A DNA stretch of 64,000 nt from Cyanidium caldarium (taxonomy: Eukaryota > Rhodophyta > Bangiophyceae > Cyanidiales > Cyanidiaceae): NCBI GenBank assembly GCA_026184775.1, contig JANCYW010000009.1, forward strand, positions 423,413 to 487,412. The letters are read 5' to 3'. Numbering within the stretch: the first letter of the stretch is position 1; the number at the start of each line of letters is the position of its first letter. The translations under genes were made by a program, and so were the position numbers. This document shows positions 1,849 to 64,000 of this stretch, piece by piece. The notes under the pieces are model-generated. The model was given only the letters and a program-made list of their open reading frames with translations. It was not told the DNA's origin and searched no databases.

Positions 1849-2145
1849 GTTGGAGGTGGGCAGCGGTGCCGCAGGCGAGGCACTCCGGGTTTGCACCGAA
1901 GACGGGCACCGAGCAGCGTTCGGTGTTGTCGCTGTGGTGTGAGCGTCGTCGCCGCACGTCCGCTTCCCGGCCCCGCGCGCGCCGATGCGCGTTTTTCGGA
2001 GGGCGCGCGCCGCCGATCTCGCGTCGACGCCGCGACGGGCGCGGGATCGTGTCCGGGGGGCCGGTCGGCAGACGCCCAGAGAATGGCTCCCGGGGAGACC
2101 GGGGAGGCGGCTCAGGACGTACCGCAGGAAGACGTAGACAAGTTC
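1849..2145. promoter_or_regulatory. Divergent promoter region between unknown gene and J-CpcE gene
   Basis: About 300 bp between two divergent start codons. The open frame of the right-hand gene extends into it, with an in-frame ATG at 2083, so the exact 5' end is unsure. I see no clear TATA element. Confidence 0.4.
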
Positions 2146-3810
2146 ATGGGCGAGGTATCTGGGACGCGTCGAGGGTGCCTGCTCTCGTTTACAGACACGG
2201 TTGTGCCCACTGCGCGGCGACGCCCGAGTCTCGTCGGAGGCCACAGAGGCTCCTGCAGCCCTCGCGCAGCGTCACGAACCCGATATCGTCGGGCGGCCTT
2301 TTCGCGAGCACCGCCGCGATGTCTGCAGCTGCGGTGCCAAGATGTCACTGCCGAGTCGGCCGGCACGGTCCGCTCTTGGGCGCGTCCCACCGACTTTTAC
2401 GAGCTGCTGGGATTGTCTCGTTCGGCGACGGCGGCCGAAGTCAAGACGGCGTATCGCACCATGTCGCGCCAGTGGCATCCGGACGTTGTCGGCACATCCG
2501 ATGCAACGTTGAGGCGGTTCAAGGCGTTGCAACGAGCGTATGAGGTGCTCTCGGACGCCACCTTGCGCTGCGTGTACGATGCCGCTGGCCTCGACGGACT
2601 CGAGGCGTACGTCTCCGTGGAGCAGCGATACCAAGCGGTGGCGCGAATGCTAGAGGAGATGCACAGCGTGAATGCGGGTGGCAGCATGCGTCCTGAGGAG
2701 CTGGATTTGTTGGGTGAGAGCGGCGACTTGGCGGGGTTGCTGGCGCCGGCCCCGCCGCCAGCCCCTGAGACGGAGGGCGCGACCGCTGCCGACGCGCCCA
2801 ACGCCTGTCCGCGCTCGGTGGACGAGGCCATCGCCAACCTACACCATCCCGATTACGGATACCGCTACTACGCGCTGTGGTGGTTGTCGCGCTTCCGCGT
2901 GCGTCAGGCCGAAGACGCGCTCATCCGCGTGCTGCGCGAGTCACCGGATCGCACACCGCTGGGCGGGTATCCGATGCGGCGCCGGGCGGCCATCGCACTG
3001 GGCAATGTGGGCACGCCCAAGGCGCTGGGCGCGCTGGTGCAATCGCTGGATTGTCGGGAGGATTGGCAGGTGCGCAACCGCGCCGCCGAGGCGATCGCCA
3101 AGGTGCTCGCGGAACACCCGGGAATGCCGTGGCAGTCACCCGACGCCATTGCACTGCAGCACCAGTTGTTGGCATTGCTGGAGACGTACGCGCCGCCGTC
3201 CGATGTGGCGATGGCCGGAAGCGCTGCCCCGCCCATGTTCGACCTGTCGTCGTTGGACGACGAGAAGCGCCGGCGGCTGGAGGCAATTTTCGCCAAACGG
3301 CGCCAGGATGAGCTGCGCGCCCGTCGCCTCACGCACACCCCGTCGCTGGGGGTGGACTTGCAGTCATCGGCCATGACCGAGCCCTACGAGTGGCTGCTCA
3401 AGGCCGCCGGCCAAGCACTGGTGAGTATGCGAGCCGCCGGCGTGACCGACAGCGCCTTTCAGGAGCGCGCACCCGGGGTGATGCGACGCTTTCTGGATCA
3501 CGACGTGCCGCTGGTCAAGTATGCCGCGCACAAGGCACTGTACCAGGCCACCGGCGATCGACGACATGCCGAGGCGCTGATGCAGGCGCTGGCGTTTGGT
3601 GCCGAGCACCACTTCTCCCAGCGCGTGCTGGTGCGGGATCTCGGCGAGTTGGGCTGTGCGGAGGCGGCGTCGGCCATTGCCGACTGTCCCATGGTCGAGA
3701 ACAGTTTCAAGATATTTGCGCTGAGGCGGTTGCTGCAGAGTGCGCAGCGAGCGGGTGCTGCGGAGGCGTACACCGTGCGTATTCTGGGGCATATCGATGC
3801 GCTGTTGTAG
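2146..3810 (+). CDS. cpcE: J-domain / CpcE-type phycocyanobilin lyase fusion
   Basis: About 554 residues. A Ser/Arg-rich N-terminus (1-80) resembles a plastid transit peptide. Residues ~82-150 form a J-domain (DFYELLGLS start, HPD signature at ~111-113, YEVLSD near the end). From ~224 to the C-terminus the protein is made of PBS-lyase HEAT repeats with the hallmark motifs of cyanobacterial CpcE: RYYALWWLSRFR, DRTPLGGYPMRR, and a terminal VENSFKIFALRRLL. In cyanobacteria CpcE pairs with CpcF to attach phycocyanobilin to Cys84 of alpha-phycocyanin. Here it faces a CpcF-like gene 46 bp away. An upstream ATG at 2083 would add an acidic 21-residue stretch unlike a transit peptide. I infer that the J-domain recruits plastid Hsp70 to the lyase or its apo-phycocyanin substrate. 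Confidence 0.85.
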   Translation: MGEVSGTRRGCLLSFTDTVVPTARRRPSLVGGHRGSCSPRAASRTRYRRAAFSRAPPRCLQLRCQDVTAESAGTVRSWARPTDFYELLGLSRSATAAEVKTAYRTMSRQWHPDVVGTSDATLRRFKALQRAYEVLSDATLRCVYDAAGLDGLEAYVSVEQRYQAVARMLEEMHSVNAGGSMRPEELDLLGESGDLAGLLAPAPPPAPETEGATAADAPNACPRSVDEAIANLHHPDYGYRYYALWWLSRFRVRQAEDALIRVLRESPDRTPLGGYPMRRRAAIALGNVGTPKALGALVQSLDCREDWQVRNRAAEAIAKVLAEHPGMPWQSPDAIALQHQLLALLETYAPPSDVAMAGSAAPPMFDLSSLDDEKRRRLEAIFAKRRQDELRARRLTHTPSLGVDLQSSAMTEPYEWLLKAAGQALVSMRAAGVTDSAFQERAPGVMRRFLDHDVPLVKYAAHKALYQATGDRRHAEALMQALAFGAEHHFSQRVLVRDLGELGCAEAASAIADCPMVENSFKIFALRRLLQSAQRAGAAEAYTVRILGHIDALL

Positions 3811-3856
3811 AGAGGAACGTCTCGTGACTGCTTCGGTCGATGAGGTCGGTTCGGTT

Positions 3857-4831
3857 TCACGCCGCTGGCCGCGTCTGCGGATGAGGCGCAGACGGCGATG
3901 GAGAGCTGGTCGCCCATTCCCATTCCGCCTCGCCGTTCAGTTGTCGCAGAGCGTGGGCGGCCCGCAGACGCACTGTTTCGTCGGTGTCGTCGCGGGCCAC
4001 GTACTGCACCGTCTCCGACACCATCGCCCGCTCTGCTGCCGCCAGTGAGGCAGCCGCCCGGTTCACCAGCGCCACCGATGCCGCCACCGCCGCATAGCGG
4101 ATGGACCAGTCGGGTTCGTCGCGCATCAGCAGCAACAGCGCCTCCAGCGCTTCGCGTCGCATGGTGCGGCCATCGGGTCCATCGGATCCATCGGCAGTCT
4201 CCGACTCGCGTTCGACATATCGCAGGGAACCCAGACAGCGAATGGCGGCGCGCCGCACATTGGGAATGGGCCCGCGGCGTGCACACTGCAGCGCCACCGG
4301 CCATACCGCCGCCGCCACCTGCGCATCCTGCAGCTGCGCCAGCACTCGCAGCGCGTACGCGTTCACCGAGTAGTTGAGCGCGGCCACCCCGCGCAGCAGC
4401 GTCGGCACCGCCCGCGCCCCATACACTCGCACCAGCACGTCTTGCGCTAAACGCGCCGCGACCGGATTGTTGTAACCGAGCGAATCCACCAGAAACGCCA
4501 TCACCGTCTCCGGCGCCAAGGCGGTGGCCGAGCCGGCGCCCTCCAACCGCCGGGTGATGTCCCGCATCGCCTCGACGAAAGCCGCCGGCGAGTCTGGCCC
4601 TTTGTAGATGTATTGCATCGGCTGACGAAACTCGTCTGGCACTTGATTCCACGAAATTTCATAATCCAGCCCGCCATTCACTCCCGACATGCGCAGCAGA
4701 CGCCTCGGGGATGCCGGACAGAGCGGCTGCCGTCGTCGACAACACGTTGCAGAACCTCCCGGTGCCCGTTTCCACCCGAGCGACCTCCGCCAACCCAGTC
4801 CTACCACATACCCGGCACGGCGCTCCCTCAT
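3857..4831 (-). CDS. cpcF: CpcF-type phycocyanobilin lyase subunit
   Basis: 324-residue HEAT-repeat protein. Residues 1-47 are Arg-rich, Cys-containing and almost free of acidic residues, suiting a plastid transit peptide. The remainder has CpcF-like helical repeats: a GYNNP-VA-LAQDVLV element, AVPTLLRG-NY--NAYALRVLAQL, IPNVRRAAIRCLGSL, and a late DWSIRYAAVAASVAL repeat. CpcF is the partner of CpcE in the heterodimeric lyase that attaches phycocyanobilin to alpha-phycocyanin. Placement next to a CpcE-type gene strongly supports the call. A weakly acidic loop (about 200-220) and a Ser/Pro-rich tail are extra. An NblB-like lyase/isomerase homologue is the alternative, but the pairing favours CpcF. 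Confidence 0.78.
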   Translation of the reverse strand: MRERRAGYVVGLGWRRSLGWKRAPGGSATCCRRRQPLCPASPRRLLRMSGVNGGLDYEISWNQVPDEFRQPMQYIYKGPDSPAAFVEAMRDITRRLEGAGSATALAPETVMAFLVDSLGYNNPVAARLAQDVLVRVYGARAVPTLLRGVAALNYSVNAYALRVLAQLQDAQVAAAVWPVALQCARRGPIPNVRRAAIRCLGSLRYVERESETADGSDGPDGRTMRREALEALLLLMRDEPDWSIRYAAVAASVALVNRAAASLAAAERAMVSETVQYVARDDTDETVRLRAAHALRQLNGEAEWEWATSSPSPSAPHPQTRPAA

Positions 4832-46860: not shown

Positions 46861-49041
46861 ATGGCCACCCGCCATGAGGTGATTCAGCGGGCGATACTGG
46901 ACTCGCACGTGGAACCGGAGCGCACGCGGGTGTTGAATCAGCTGCCGCCCAACGCGGGGAGCGGCGCGTACGTGTTGTACTGGATGACGCGGGCGCCGCG
47001 GGCCACGCACAACGAGTCGCTCGAGGTGGCCAAATCGCTCTCGCGGCACACTGGTCTGCCGTTGGTGTGTTTGGCGGTGGTGGATCTGGAGGAGGCGCGC
47101 GAGGGCTCTCTGCGGCATGTGCTATTCCAGCTGGAGGGGCTGGCCGAGCTGGGGCGTGTGCTGGTGCGGCGCCACGGCTGTGCCCCGCCTGGTGTGCACG
47201 TGCGCGTCGATCCCTCGCTGAGCGAATGGTATGCGCTGTCGGTGGGTGGTGTGGCTATGCGAGGCAGTCGCGCGGTGGCTGCAGCGGCCGCGGCCGCGCC
47301 CTCCACCACCGTGGTGGGCGGACTGAGCGTGCTGGGGCATGCGCACGAGCGCAGCCGTGCCTCGTCGCCATCGTCGTCGTTGCGCGGCGCCACCCCCGAG
47401 CAGCAGCTCAGCAGCGGCAGAGCCGCGGCAACGGCGTCGGACGCGCTGCTGGGTTTCACCGGTTTCGCCTCGCGCGCCTACGCCATCGTCACCGACCGCA
47501 CCCACCTGCGGTATCAGCGAGCACGCACGGCGCGCGTCGCCGCCCTGGCACCGTGTCCGGTGGTGGAGGTGGAGGCGGCGCTGATTGTGCCCGTAGAGAC
47601 GGCCAGCGTGCGGGAGGAGCTGACTGCCGAACCGTTTCTGGCGCGGCTGCAGAACGGCCTCGGGGAGCGGTTTCTGCACGAACTGCCGCCCAGCGCCGCG
47701 CTGGCCCCGCCGCCGTCGCCGGCCGCGCTGGACTATCTGCAGACGTTCGGGTTTCGCCATGCGCCAGCGCGCGAACGCGGTTGGACCGCTGAAGACTGGC
47801 TGGCGCCGCCGCACCGCGATCACCTGCTGAGCATTTTGCGGCAGAACGGCGTCGACTGCGACGCGCCGCAGATATCGGTGGGCGCGTACCGCGGCGGGGA
47901 GATATCGGCGCGCCGGCTGTTGTCGGTGTTTATCGCTCGCAAACTGCACGGCTACGCCTGCAAGGCCGAACAACAGAACGAGGCGCTGCGGGCCGAATAC
48001 GGCTCGCTGTTGTCGCCGTATCTGACGTTTGGCCACATCTCTCCGGTGTATGTGGCCGTCAAGGTGTATCGAGCGGCGGCTGAGCGGGCGCTGGACGCGG
48101 ATCGCTCGCGCACCCGCGCGCACGCCGCCGCCGACCGGGTGGTGGCGCAACTGGGCAAGGTGTCTGAGGAGGGGACGGCGTTGGCGCCTTCCGGTGGCGG
48201 CTTCGACTCTGGTGAGTCGTTACCGTCCCGCACCGCCTCGGGCTCGGCATCGCCGCCGGTGCGTGTCGTCGAACCGGTGGCGGTGCGGCCGCGCGAACCG
48301 CAGCCGCTGACGCTGCCCGAGGCAGTGGAGATGGCCGGTGAGCAGCACGACGTGCGCAAATTCATGGAGAATATGTATCGGCGGGAGCTGTCGTACAATT
48401 TTGTGATGTACAACAAGCAGTACGACACCTTCGAGGGGGCGGTGCCGCCGTGGGCCCGACGCGCCTTGTACGAGGCGGCCGCCAAACGGGTCAGTCGGTA
48501 TCGGTACAGCGAGTCGGATTGGTATAATGCGCGCACGCACGACGCCCGCTGGAATGCGGTGCAGCGCGAGCTGCTCACCCGCGGCCGCAACATGTGCCGC
48601 GACCGCAACTACTGGTGTCAGAAGATGGTCGAGTACGAGGACGACCCGGCACACGCCTACGCGCTGGCCATTCGCATCAACAACCACCTGATGCTGGACG
48701 CCAACGACCCGGTGGGGTACGCCACCGTGGCGCAGTGTTTCGGGCGCTGGCAGCAGCCGTTGGCACGCGAGGGTGGCCGTCGGGGTGAGGCGGGGGCGCG
48801 CGTCGACCCGATATCGCGCACCGGCGGTTTGGCGGTGGACGAGCTGTCAGCGGGGCGGCTTGGCGGTGGCGGTGGTGATGGTGCGGCGGGCATGCCGCTG
48901 TCGCGCCTGGGCGCCGTGCCGGAGATCTACACCTTGCGCACCGAGGAGCAGTGGCGGTATGCGGAGGAGCTGGCTGACTCGCTCGATAGGACGCTCGAGT
49001 TGTCGCCTATACCCGAACACGAAATCGTGGATGCTTACTAA
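46861..49041 (+). CDS. Class II CPD photolyase homologue, divergent
   Basis: 726 residues, longer than typical class II photolyases (~450-500) because of Ala/Ser-rich insertions (about 135-205 and 425-470). The N-terminal alpha/beta domain has VLYWMTRAPRATHNESLEVAK. The C-terminal FAD domain has RRELSYNFVMYNKQYDTFEGA and DARWNAVQRELLTRGR. The usual RMYWAKK is RNYWCQKM and the DGRDPNGYVG FAD-site motif reads DANDPVGYATVAQ, with the key Asn lost. The protein may be a photolyase paralogue or cryptochrome-like flavoprotein rather than an active CPD repair enzyme. First ATG in frame chosen. Confidence 0.78.
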   Translation: MATRHEVIQRAILDSHVEPERTRVLNQLPPNAGSGAYVLYWMTRAPRATHNESLEVAKSLSRHTGLPLVCLAVVDLEEAREGSLRHVLFQLEGLAELGRVLVRRHGCAPPGVHVRVDPSLSEWYALSVGGVAMRGSRAVAAAAAAAPSTTVVGGLSVLGHAHERSRASSPSSSLRGATPEQQLSSGRAAATASDALLGFTGFASRAYAIVTDRTHLRYQRARTARVAALAPCPVVEVEAALIVPVETASVREELTAEPFLARLQNGLGERFLHELPPSAALAPPPSPAALDYLQTFGFRHAPARERGWTAEDWLAPPHRDHLLSILRQNGVDCDAPQISVGAYRGGEISARRLLSVFIARKLHGYACKAEQQNEALRAEYGSLLSPYLTFGHISPVYVAVKVYRAAAERALDADRSRTRAHAAADRVVAQLGKVSEEGTALAPSGGGFDSGESLPSRTASGSASPPVRVVEPVAVRPREPQPLTLPEAVEMAGEQHDVRKFMENMYRRELSYNFVMYNKQYDTFEGAVPPWARRALYEAAAKRVSRYRYSESDWYNARTHDARWNAVQRELLTRGRNMCRDRNYWCQKMVEYEDDPAHAYALAIRINNHLMLDANDPVGYATVAQCFGRWQQPLAREGGRRGEAGARVDPISRTGGLAVDELSAGRLGGGGGDGAAGMPLSRLGAVPEIYTLRTEEQWRYAEELADSLDRTLELSPIPEHEIVDAY

Positions 49042-61330: not shown

Positions 61331-61902
61331 GTCGTAGAGGCACCACGGGGCGATGATGAAGATGAAGATGAGGAGGTGGTGGTGGTTGGTGGTGGTGAGT
61401 CGGTTGGCCGCAGAGCATGTGGGCATGGCGCGGGAGTTGTTGGTAGTGGATGTGATACGTTGCAGGGCGCGCCGGGGGTGCGGGAGAAATGGAGAGACGC
61501 GTGGGTACCCTTAGTGTTGTTGTTGTTGGAGTGTGAGTGTGACTGCGAGTGAGGGAAGTAGTGCGGGGTGCGCGTGATTGTCAGGGAGTGGGAGTGGTGT
61601 TGTGGCGGACGTTCCGGTCACGGTGGCCGCATAGGAACGCCGTGTGATTGTTGTTGTTGTTGGGGGAATCGGGCACTGGTGCGTCTCTGTGTTGGTGTGT
61701 GGAATCGAAATGAGGCGATCTGGGGCAGCGCAGATGGAAGTGGGTTTGGGGCCGCTGAGCGAGCTATAGAGATGTTGAACTGCGGGGTGTTGGGTTTCGA
61801 GGGTGGTGGGGTGTTGGCGGGTGAGCGCCTGGTCGGGTGGTGGTGGTGATGGGAGTGTTTGGGTGTGTTGGTTGGTTGGTGGGTGTTGGGGCGAGTGACG
61901 AC

Positions 61903-62060
61903 CGGTTTGGGGCGGGAACGGCCAGCGGGTCGGTTGGGAGCTGGGAGCTGGGGGAGTGTTGGCGGGTGAGCGCCTGATGGGTTGACGATCGGTGGTGGTG
62001 GGAGAGGGGTCATGGGCGTGCGGGAGAGTTGGTTGGTGGGTGTGGAGTGTGTTGGGAGTG
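61903..62060 (+). repeat. 158-bp subtelomeric repeat, copy 1
   Basis: Aligns without gaps to 62098-62255 (offset 195) with few mismatches. Starts CGGTTTGGGGCGGGAACGGC and includes TGGCGGGTGAGCGCCTGATG. A shorter related block lies at about 61811-61850. Confidence 0.85.
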
Positions 62061-62097
62061 TTTGGAGTGTTCATGAGTGTGTGTTGGGTGTTGGGGT

Positions 62098-62255
62098 CGG
62101 TTTGGGGCGGGAACGGCCAGCGGGTCGGTTGGGAGCCGGGAGCTGGGGGAGTGTTGGCGGGTGAGCGCCTGATGGGTTGATGATCGGTGGTGGTGGGAGA
62201 GGGGTCATGGGCGTGCGGGAGCGTTGGTTGGTGGGTGTGGAGTGTGTTGGGAGTG
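62098..62255 (+). repeat. 158-bp subtelomeric repeat, copy 2
   Basis: Second copy of the 61903-62060 unit; a 37-bp spacer separates the two. Confidence 0.85.
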
Positions 62256-62970
62256 CGTTGGGGTGGTTGGAAGCGGAAGCGGGGAGCGGTGGCTGCGCGT
62301 GCGTCTGGGAGTGTAAAAGAACGCTGAGAGCTCTGGATCGAATGATCGATTGAAGGAATGAACGATTGATGGGGTGAGCGTGTGGGATGGGCGTCGCGCA
62401 GCGTCGGGAGGCGTGTGTGTGTGTGTGTGTGTGAGTGTTGTGATGGTGGTGGTTGGCTACAGGGGAACGAGCGGGGCAGGTGAAGTGAGATGGGTGAGTA
62501 TGGGTGAGTATGGGTGTGTGTGGGATGGGGTGTTGATGGATGTGGAGATGGAGGTGAATGATTGTTGGTGGTTGGTGGTGGGTTGGAGTGAGATGAATGG
62601 AGGTGTTGGTGTTGGTGGATGTGGGAGTGTTGGTGGAGTGAAGTTGGAGGGCGGCTGTGAGTGTGTGTGCGCTTGTGTAAGTGAGTGTATGTGTTTGGGA
62701 GTGAGTGGCTGGTTGTGGTGGGTGGATGCGTGTGTGTGTGGGATGAGCGTGTGTTGCCTGAGTGGGTGTTACTGGGGTGGATCGTTGGCGTGTGAGTGTG
62801 TGTGCGCCGGACGGTGGGACGGTGGGACGGTGGCGGGAGGTGGGAAAAGCGTTTTGGAGTGTTGGCGGGCGCAAGACGAGTCGGTGTTGATGCGGCTGGT
62901 TGTAGACGAGGGGAGTGCCGGGTGTATGGAATCGTATGGAATGGGGTCGCCTTTTGTGTGGATGCGCACA

Positions 62971-63126
62971 GATCGGTGACGGTTGTGGGAGCGGCGGCGC
63001 CTTGTGTGTGTGTGTGTGCCGATCGGTAGCGGCAGCGCGAGAGGGGGCGCCATGACGCGGATCGGTGACGGTTGTGGGAGCGGCGGCGCCTTGTGGGTGC
63101 GCGCGCGCCGATCGGCAGCGGCGCGC
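62971..63126 (+). repeat. 89-bp subtelomeric tandem duplication
   Basis: GATCGGTGACGGTTGTGGGA and the following GCGGCGGCGCCTTGTG occur at 62971 and again at 63060, each followed by GT/GC repeats and CGATCGG-AGCGGC. Confidence 0.8.
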
Positions 63127-63689
63127 AGGTGAGGGTGCGCGTTGATTGTGTCGATCGAGAACAGCAGACAAGAAGCGGCGATTGCGGCGATGGCGCGGAG
63201 TGGTGGATGCGGTGTGTGCGCCACCTGGTGGGAAAGCGTCGGTGGTAGTGAGAGAGAGCGATGGTGGTGGTGGGCAGCGCGGCGGCGGTTCCGGTGTCTA
63301 TGTGGGTAGTGTTGTTGTTGCTGCTGCAGGGTGTATGTAACGAGTCCCGGAACGGTGACGATGATGAAGCGCGTGGAAGGTGTATGTGTGGGGGCGGGTG
63401 TTGTGGACGGGAGTGTGTGTGTGTATGGGAGTGGCGTGACCTGAATGGAATGGATGTGGCATGGCACGCCGCAATTGCGTTTTTTGTGGTTGTGTATCGC
63501 CGGTCGGCGCCGTGCCCTGCCCGGGAGTGGCGCGTGCGTGTTTTGTTGGAGCGGTGGGGAACGGGCATGGGGAGTGGGGCAGCGAGTGTCGGGAATGTGT
63601 TTCGTTATTTGTTTTTTATTGGGGATCGATGTGTGCGCGCGCGATCGTGCGCACGGGAGAGCGTTTGGGGGAATGGGAGTTGTGTCGCG

Positions 63690-63834
63690 TGTGAGTTGGG
63701 TGAGATCGGGCGAAGGGGTGTGAGTTGGGTGAGATCGGGCGACCGGGTGTGAGTTGGGTGAGATTGAGGTGGAGAGTGTGAGTTGGGTGGGATCGGGCGA
63801 CCGGGTGTGCGTTGGGTGGGATCGGGCGACCGGG
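63690..63834 (+). repeat. 29-bp tandem repeat adjoining the telomere (five copies)
   Basis: Five head-to-tail 29-bp units begin at 63690, 63719, 63748, 63777 and 63806. Each has TGTGAGTTGGGTG followed by AGATCGGGCGACCGGG or a variant; the third unit is the most diverged. The array abuts the telomere repeat directly. Confidence 0.9.
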
Positions 63835-63838
63835 TGTG

Positions 63839-64000
63839 AATGGGGGGTAATGGGGGGGAATGGGGGGGAATGGGGGGGAATGGGGGGGGAATGGGGGGGA
63901 ATGGGGGGGAATGGGGGGGAATGGGGGGGAATGGGGGGGAATGGGGGGGAATGGGGGGGAATGGGGGGGAATGGGGGGGAATGGGGGGGAATGGGGGGGA
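63839..64000 (+). repeat. Telomere, AATG(7) repeat
   Basis: About 16 tandem units to the end of the window. The unit is mostly 10 bp, AAT followed by seven G; the first unit has six G plus T and one has eight G. The G-rich strand runs 5'-3' toward the end, as a right-hand telomere should. C. merolae's published unit is AAT plus six G. Confidence 0.93.

Follow-up and report, generated by a model that had tools for sequence, protein, structure and literature searches.

In this report, we describe a nuclear gene of the red alga Cyanidium caldarium that encodes a complete J-domain, with an intact HPD motif, fused to the bilin lyase subunit CpcE (J-CpcE). CpcE and CpcF are the best family and fold matches of J-CpcE and of the neighboring gene product, respectively, and the fusion is conserved among red algae. 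The window analyzed here is a stretch of 64,000 nucleotides (positions 423413-487412) at the end of a contig of 487,412 bases; the assembly comprises 20 contigs that total 8,787,356 bases.

The J-CpcE gene and the convergent gene for CpcF

The J-CpcE product consists of 575 amino acids and is encoded on the plus strand by one frame (2083-3810) without an internal stop codon, as expected from the original prediction that an HPD-bearing J-domain is fused to CpcE. The gene is therefore present as predicted, with one reservation about its extent: the start had been placed at the in-frame ATG at 2146 (Met22), the other ATG is at 2083, and either is possible. The longest stop-free frame in the interval 2001-3900 corresponds to 602 amino acids versus a maximum of 401 amino acids in 300 mononucleotide shuffles, and thus the frame is not due to chance. 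The third-position GC content is coding-like from approximately 2383 onward and ambiguous over 2143-2382. The features of the two genes are as follows.

2083-3810, plus strand: J-CpcE gene (single open frame; Pfam, NCBIfam, and PDB matches; AlphaFold model m6c141f47df84)
2083-2385, plus strand: presequence-like N-terminal region, residues 1-101 (low model confidence; median pairwise identity of 16%)
2392-2589, plus strand: J-domain, residues 104-169, with HPD at 132-134 (2476-2484) (Pfam DnaJ; HPD in 22 of 22 covering rows)
2590-2790, plus strand: post-J helix and flexible linker, residues 170-236 (alignment; low pLDDT at 197-202 and 210-234)
2791-3114, plus strand: N-terminal HEAT half of CpcE, residues 237-344 (positions 4-100 of the CpcE model at 246-341; 5n3u_A)
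3115-3372, plus strand: red-algal enlargement (residues 345-430) that separates the two CpcE halves and carries the motif RxTxTPxL (length and motif counts)
3373-3810, plus strand: C-terminal HEAT half of CpcE, residues 431-575, and stop codon (CpcE model; alignment)
3811-3856, no strand: spacer of 46 bp between the convergent stop codons (frames of J-CpcE and CpcF)
3857-4831, minus strand: CpcF gene, 324 amino acids, with a conserved core from MSGVNGG (Met48) (NCBIfam CpcF; 5n3u_B; alignment A3)

The Pfam DnaJ model was matched over its entire length (1-63 of 63) at residues 104-166, with an E value of 7e-18 and a score of 64.9 bits (cut-off 27.8). The J-domain is complete, HPD included, as in J-domain proteins. 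Pfam also returned HEAT_2 at residues 248-339 (E 7e-15) and the PBS lyase HEAT-like repeat. Residues 1-101 are a probable plastid transit peptide.

The best NCBIfam model for J-CpcE is CpcE (NF058502) with 168.7 bits and an E value of 1.7e-49, followed among the lyases by CpeY at 35.8 bits; NblB scored 24.6 bits. Positions 150-260 of the CpcE model align to 3475-3807 of the window, within the C-terminal HEAT half. The CpcF candidate has a single NCBIfam match at E <= 0.1, namely CpcF (NF058515) with 93.2 bits. The placement of both HEAT proteins in these families, on which the original prediction depended, was thus borne out, though at 51% of the curated cut-off for CpcE (330 bits) and 42% of that for CpcF (220 bits), these cut-offs having been made for naming bacterial and archaeal proteins. 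Because its score is under a cut-off meant for such proteins, J-CpcE is best regarded as a divergent homologue; by the same profiles CpcF is another, and neither is a confirmed equivalog. A second HEAT-repeat-like frame with weak similarity to CpcE (36 bits) is found elsewhere (L003; G000:C6:261077-261364) and is possibly PBS-lyase-like.

The best PDB matches by sequence are chain A of 5n3u for J-CpcE (9e-35) and chain B for CpcF (4e-19). The AlphaFold models have a mean pLDDT of 73.5 and a pTM of 0.56 for J-CpcE, and 80.4 and 0.75 for CpcF. In Foldseek searches with these models, 5n3u_A was ranked first for J-CpcE (E 4e-13; TM 0.82 by target length and 0.40 by query length) and 5n3u_B was ranked first for CpcF (E 2e-6; TM 0.83 by target length). 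The J-domain of the J-CpcE model is predicted at high confidence and the linker to the HEAT part at low confidence. The motif SG(V/I)NGG opens the CpcF core in 23 of the 26 CpcF rows of alignment A3, which took 25 of 39 CpcF matches. Besides this genome, those of Cyanidiococcus, Galdieria, Porphyra, and Pyropia have CpcF homologues.

The two genes lie tail-to-tail in a nuclear genome, as had been predicted. The likeness to the cyanobacterial cpcEF operon, which was part of the same prediction, extends to the pairing of the genes here but not to its conservation. The nearest relatives, P0001 and P0019, are each found on a contig of 148,369 bases, and probably share it. The Cyanidiococcus genes F1559_003018 and F1559_003032 are each on a contig of 420,780 bases, with locus tags that are not adjacent. 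In Pyropia vietnamensis, CpcE and CpcF are on different contigs (1,610,640 and 1,368,900 bases), and a conserved cpcE-cpcF pair was rejected on these grounds. Linkage of the two genes may be old in Cyanidiales, and their close tail-to-tail adjacency looks local. Since the pairing is not conserved, the pair does not look like the remnant of a cyanobacterial operon.

Several other frames and repeats were noted in the window. Beside J-CpcE, on the minus strand at 1159-1848, there is a frame of 229 amino acids with coding-like third-position GC and no Pfam or NCBIfam match. A frame of 726 amino acids (46861-49041, plus strand) has as its sole match a partial one to the N-terminal domain of DNA photolyase. 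The window terminates at a chromosome end with a telomere-like GAATGGGGGG array of approximately 16 copies (63838-64000), preceded by an array of 29-bp units (63689-63839), and there is a strong GC skew across the last 2 kb. The large subtelomeric frame at 61511-63568 (minus strand) has no Pfam match, lies over a G-rich repeat region, and is probably not a gene.

Conservation of the fusion in red algae

The protein search, in which J-CpcE relatives were drawn from approximately 8,000 scored candidates (those sharing most words), returned 29 related proteins. The HPD position is covered by 21 of these and HPD is present in all 21; with the window sequence there are 30 rows, and HPD is found in 22 of the 22 that cover it. 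The remaining 8 relatives are short models, seven beginning within the J-domain and one just past it, as truncated models would, and they look like such. No CpcE clearly without a J-domain was found among the 29 relatives. Six more matches in the same search are J-proteins that do not have the lyase part. Among the matches from these scored candidates, no glaucophyte or cryptophyte is named. A fusion peculiar to this genome was rejected, since many red algae have it, a breadth that the original prediction did not mention.

The named carriers of J-CpcE are Galdieria phlegrea (Galph1/Gphleg), G. sulphuraria, Gracilaria domingensis, Gracilariopsis chorda, and Pyropia vietnamensis, which we take to span the deepest divisions of the red algae. 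The relatives with HPD presumably include cyanidiophytes, florideophytes, and bangiophytes, and the others are taken as red algal from their similarity. J-CpcE is 53-56% identical to the Cyanidiococcus protein. The median pairwise identity, determined from 20 rows with the incomplete models P0007 and P0008 left out, is 42% for the J-domain, 16% for the N-terminus, 30% for the linker, and 50-55% for the HEAT halves. The positions immediately before and after HPD differ among rows. Bacterial J-proteins and those of this genome scored alike as possible donors of the J-domain.

In a midpoint-rooted tree of the window sequence, 19 of the 29 relatives, and cyanobacterial E-type sequences (5 of 60 sequences were removed as duplicates), red CpcE sits on a long branch and forms a single clade with a UFBoot value of 99, apart from the sampled cyanobacterial sequences. 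The motif RxTxTPxL is present in 30 of 30 rows of alignment A2 and in 0 of 40 cyanobacterial rows. Judged from these sequences, J-CpcE is probably an ancestral trait of red algae.

J-domain residues, Hsp70 partners, and possible function

In what we take to be E. coli DnaJ numbering, the equivalent of R22 is K or R in 21 of 22 rows, that of Y25 is Y in 19 and F in 3, and F47 is kept in 21 of 22. The equivalent of K26 is Leu in 15 of 22 rows, R27 is K or R in 3 of 22, and R36 is V, T, or A in 20 of 22 and Arg in the other 2. Position 129 of J-CpcE is K or R in 20 of 22 rows. K26, R27, and R36 are presumably DnaK-contact positions of DnaJ, and with their equivalents mostly replaced, coupling to DnaK may be weak. 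An HPD that has stayed intact over so long a divergence favors an Hsp70 partner.

The nuclear assembly encodes Hsp70 proteins of the mitochondrial, cytosolic (EEVD), and ER (HDEL) types, with compartments assigned from their ends. A fourth canonical Hsp70 was not found in it; the other relatives are more divergent. The chloroplast Hsp70 of Cyanidium is presumably plastid-encoded. That of Bangiales is plastid-encoded according to PMC10255470. HPD is absent from the two CpcS-type frames, the one CpcT-type frame, and the CpcF of this genome, and the J-domain is thus on CpcE alone among the lyases examined here.

The J-CpcE/CpcF pair is probably a red-algal phycocyanin alpha-84 lyase of the E/F type, in which the J-domain recruits plastid Hsp70 during bilin loading. 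We infer import, pairing, enzyme activity, stimulation of Hsp70, and the direction of coupling as follows. Both proteins would be imported into the plastid and would pair there like CpcE and CpcF, and the pair is predicted to attach phycocyanobilin to Cys84 of alpha-phycocyanin. The J-domain, on its flexible linker, would dock on plastid DnaK/Hsp70 and trigger its ATPase beside the lyase. During bilin attachment, Hsp70 would then hold or hand over apo-alpha-phycocyanin, or would keep the heterodimer in its folded state. Counted for this reading are the family and fold matches, the red clade, the kept HPD and R22/Y25/F47 equivalents, the higher identity of the J-domain than of the N-terminus and linker, the set of Hsp70 proteins, and the HPD-free other lyases. 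Counted against it are the replaced DnaK-contact positions, the family scores under the cut-offs, and the fact that cyanobacterial CpcE/CpcF functions without a fused J-domain. In a Synechocystis cpcF mutant, apo-CpcA accumulates with no apparent rapid degradation, according to PMC4143364; together with the J-domain-free cyanobacterial enzyme, this leaves a chaperone need of alpha-phycocyanin unproven. On this sequence evidence, the chaperone-coupled bilin attachment suggested in the original prediction is plausible.

It is unlikely that the J-domain serves instead in phycobilisome repair or dismantling, with J-CpcE spotting damaged phycocyanin and Hsp70 (with Clp) extracting it, or with the bilin being removed, a function nearer to that of NblB. 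The weak NblB match of J-CpcE would fit, and PMC7966870 describes NblB, an adaptor of phycobilisome proteolysis, as a distant relative of CpcE and plant plastid J20 as acting with Hsp70 and ClpC. However, the CpcE model outscores NblB by 144 bits, and CpcF homologues are present here and in the four genera named above. We consider it rather improbable that the J-domain serves J-CpcE only, in folding after import or in reaching CpcF, without any handling of phycocyanin. Plastid import implies an unfolded precursor and the linker is flexible in the model, as such self-assistance would have it, but the CpcF, CpcS-type, and CpcT-type frames are free of HPD, and import alone thus seems not to require a fused J-domain. 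Replacement at the three positions that we take to contact DnaK would also suit a structural leftover without Hsp70 function; this is very improbable given an HPD that is constant in every covering row between variable flanking positions. It is scarcely credible that two separate genes, one for the J-domain and one for the HEAT part, have been joined by mistake: the J-domain is incomplete or missing in the models of 8 of the 29 relatives, but seven of them still start within it, the frame here is open throughout, and the identical join is found in gene models of several sources and species.

With J-CpcE/CpcF as an Hsp70-recruiting lyase, it is possible, and we suggest it tentatively, that a red-algal ancestor made the lyase a dedicated J-protein. 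Plastid-encoded Hsp70 would act at the lyase on plastid-encoded apo-phycocyanin, loading and folding would be one nuclear-controlled step, and all phycocyanin-bearing red algae would depend on it. The fusion has been retained throughout the range of red algae sampled, which strongly hints that both functions belong together. In red-algal chloroplasts, the attachment of pigment may be coupled to protein folding, and J-CpcE, which would connect an Hsp70 system with a bilin lyase, offers a testable route into red-algal phycobilisome assembly.

Comparison with known systems

CpcE-like matches were obtained in 115 of 292 cyanobacterial genomes (124 places; E <= 1e-50, with up to 8 candidates scored in each genome), in stop-to-stop frames of 262-405 amino acids. 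No J-domain was found in the eight frames that were read, the five longest (334-405 amino acids) and three more. The other frames, of 320 amino acids or fewer, were judged J-domain-free by length only, because there is no room for a J-domain of 63 positions beside a lyase of 260 positions. A full CpcE frame (274-301 amino acids) was found at 16 of 23 cyanobacterial CpcF loci, and none of these 16 frames has an HPD preceding its first HEAT motif. The letters HPD in two cyanobacterial rows were rejected as a J-domain, since they lie outside any J-domain, in a trimmed stretch whose start is 25 residues N-terminal to the first HEAT motif. With no J-domain seen in CpcE frames, a cyanobacterial origin of the fusion was rejected as far as sampled.

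The fusion is not described in the open-license literature that was searched, nor in the accessible parts of the red-algal lyase papers PMC2408579, PMC6811547, and PMC13193486. Red-algal bilin lyases are called poorly characterized in PMC13193486, and CpcE/CpcF of Cyanidioschyzon and Galdieria were identified there by BLAST; these belong to the same red-algal family, but the main text has no mention of a J-domain, DnaJ, or Hsp70. Public entries name several J-CpcE relatives phycocyanobilin lyase alpha or CpcE, so the family is already known and the novelty seems to lie in the conserved J-domain on CpcE.

To our knowledge, neither J20 nor ARC6 is a pigment lyase. These specialized plastid J-proteins (J20, in PMC7966870) likewise have a J-domain bound to one plastid task. 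NblB, the adaptor of phycobilisome degradation, is a distant HEAT-repeat relative (24.6 versus 168.7 bits for CpcE). PecE/PecF and single-chain lyase-isomerases such as MpeQ (7mc4) share the E/F-type HEAT fold, and MpeQ is a weaker Foldseek match to J-CpcE at rank 11. Red CpcE groups with neither the second-copy ("PecE-like") nor the "marine-type" sequences sampled, both names being our own labels. The cyanobacterial CpcE/CpcF of Nostoc PCC 7120 (5n3u) is like the red pair in sequence, in fold, and in the presence of both subunits. At all 16 cyanobacterial loci, the two genes share a strand with cpcE upstream, at some of them approximately 0.8-2.3 kb away, whereas here both genes are nuclear and convergent. 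The middle part of cyanobacterial CpcE is short, with 26-27 residues in 38 of 40 rows and 14 in the other 2, and the frames that were read contain no J-domain, whereas red J-CpcE has both the J-domain and an enlarged middle part, of 86 residues in the window.
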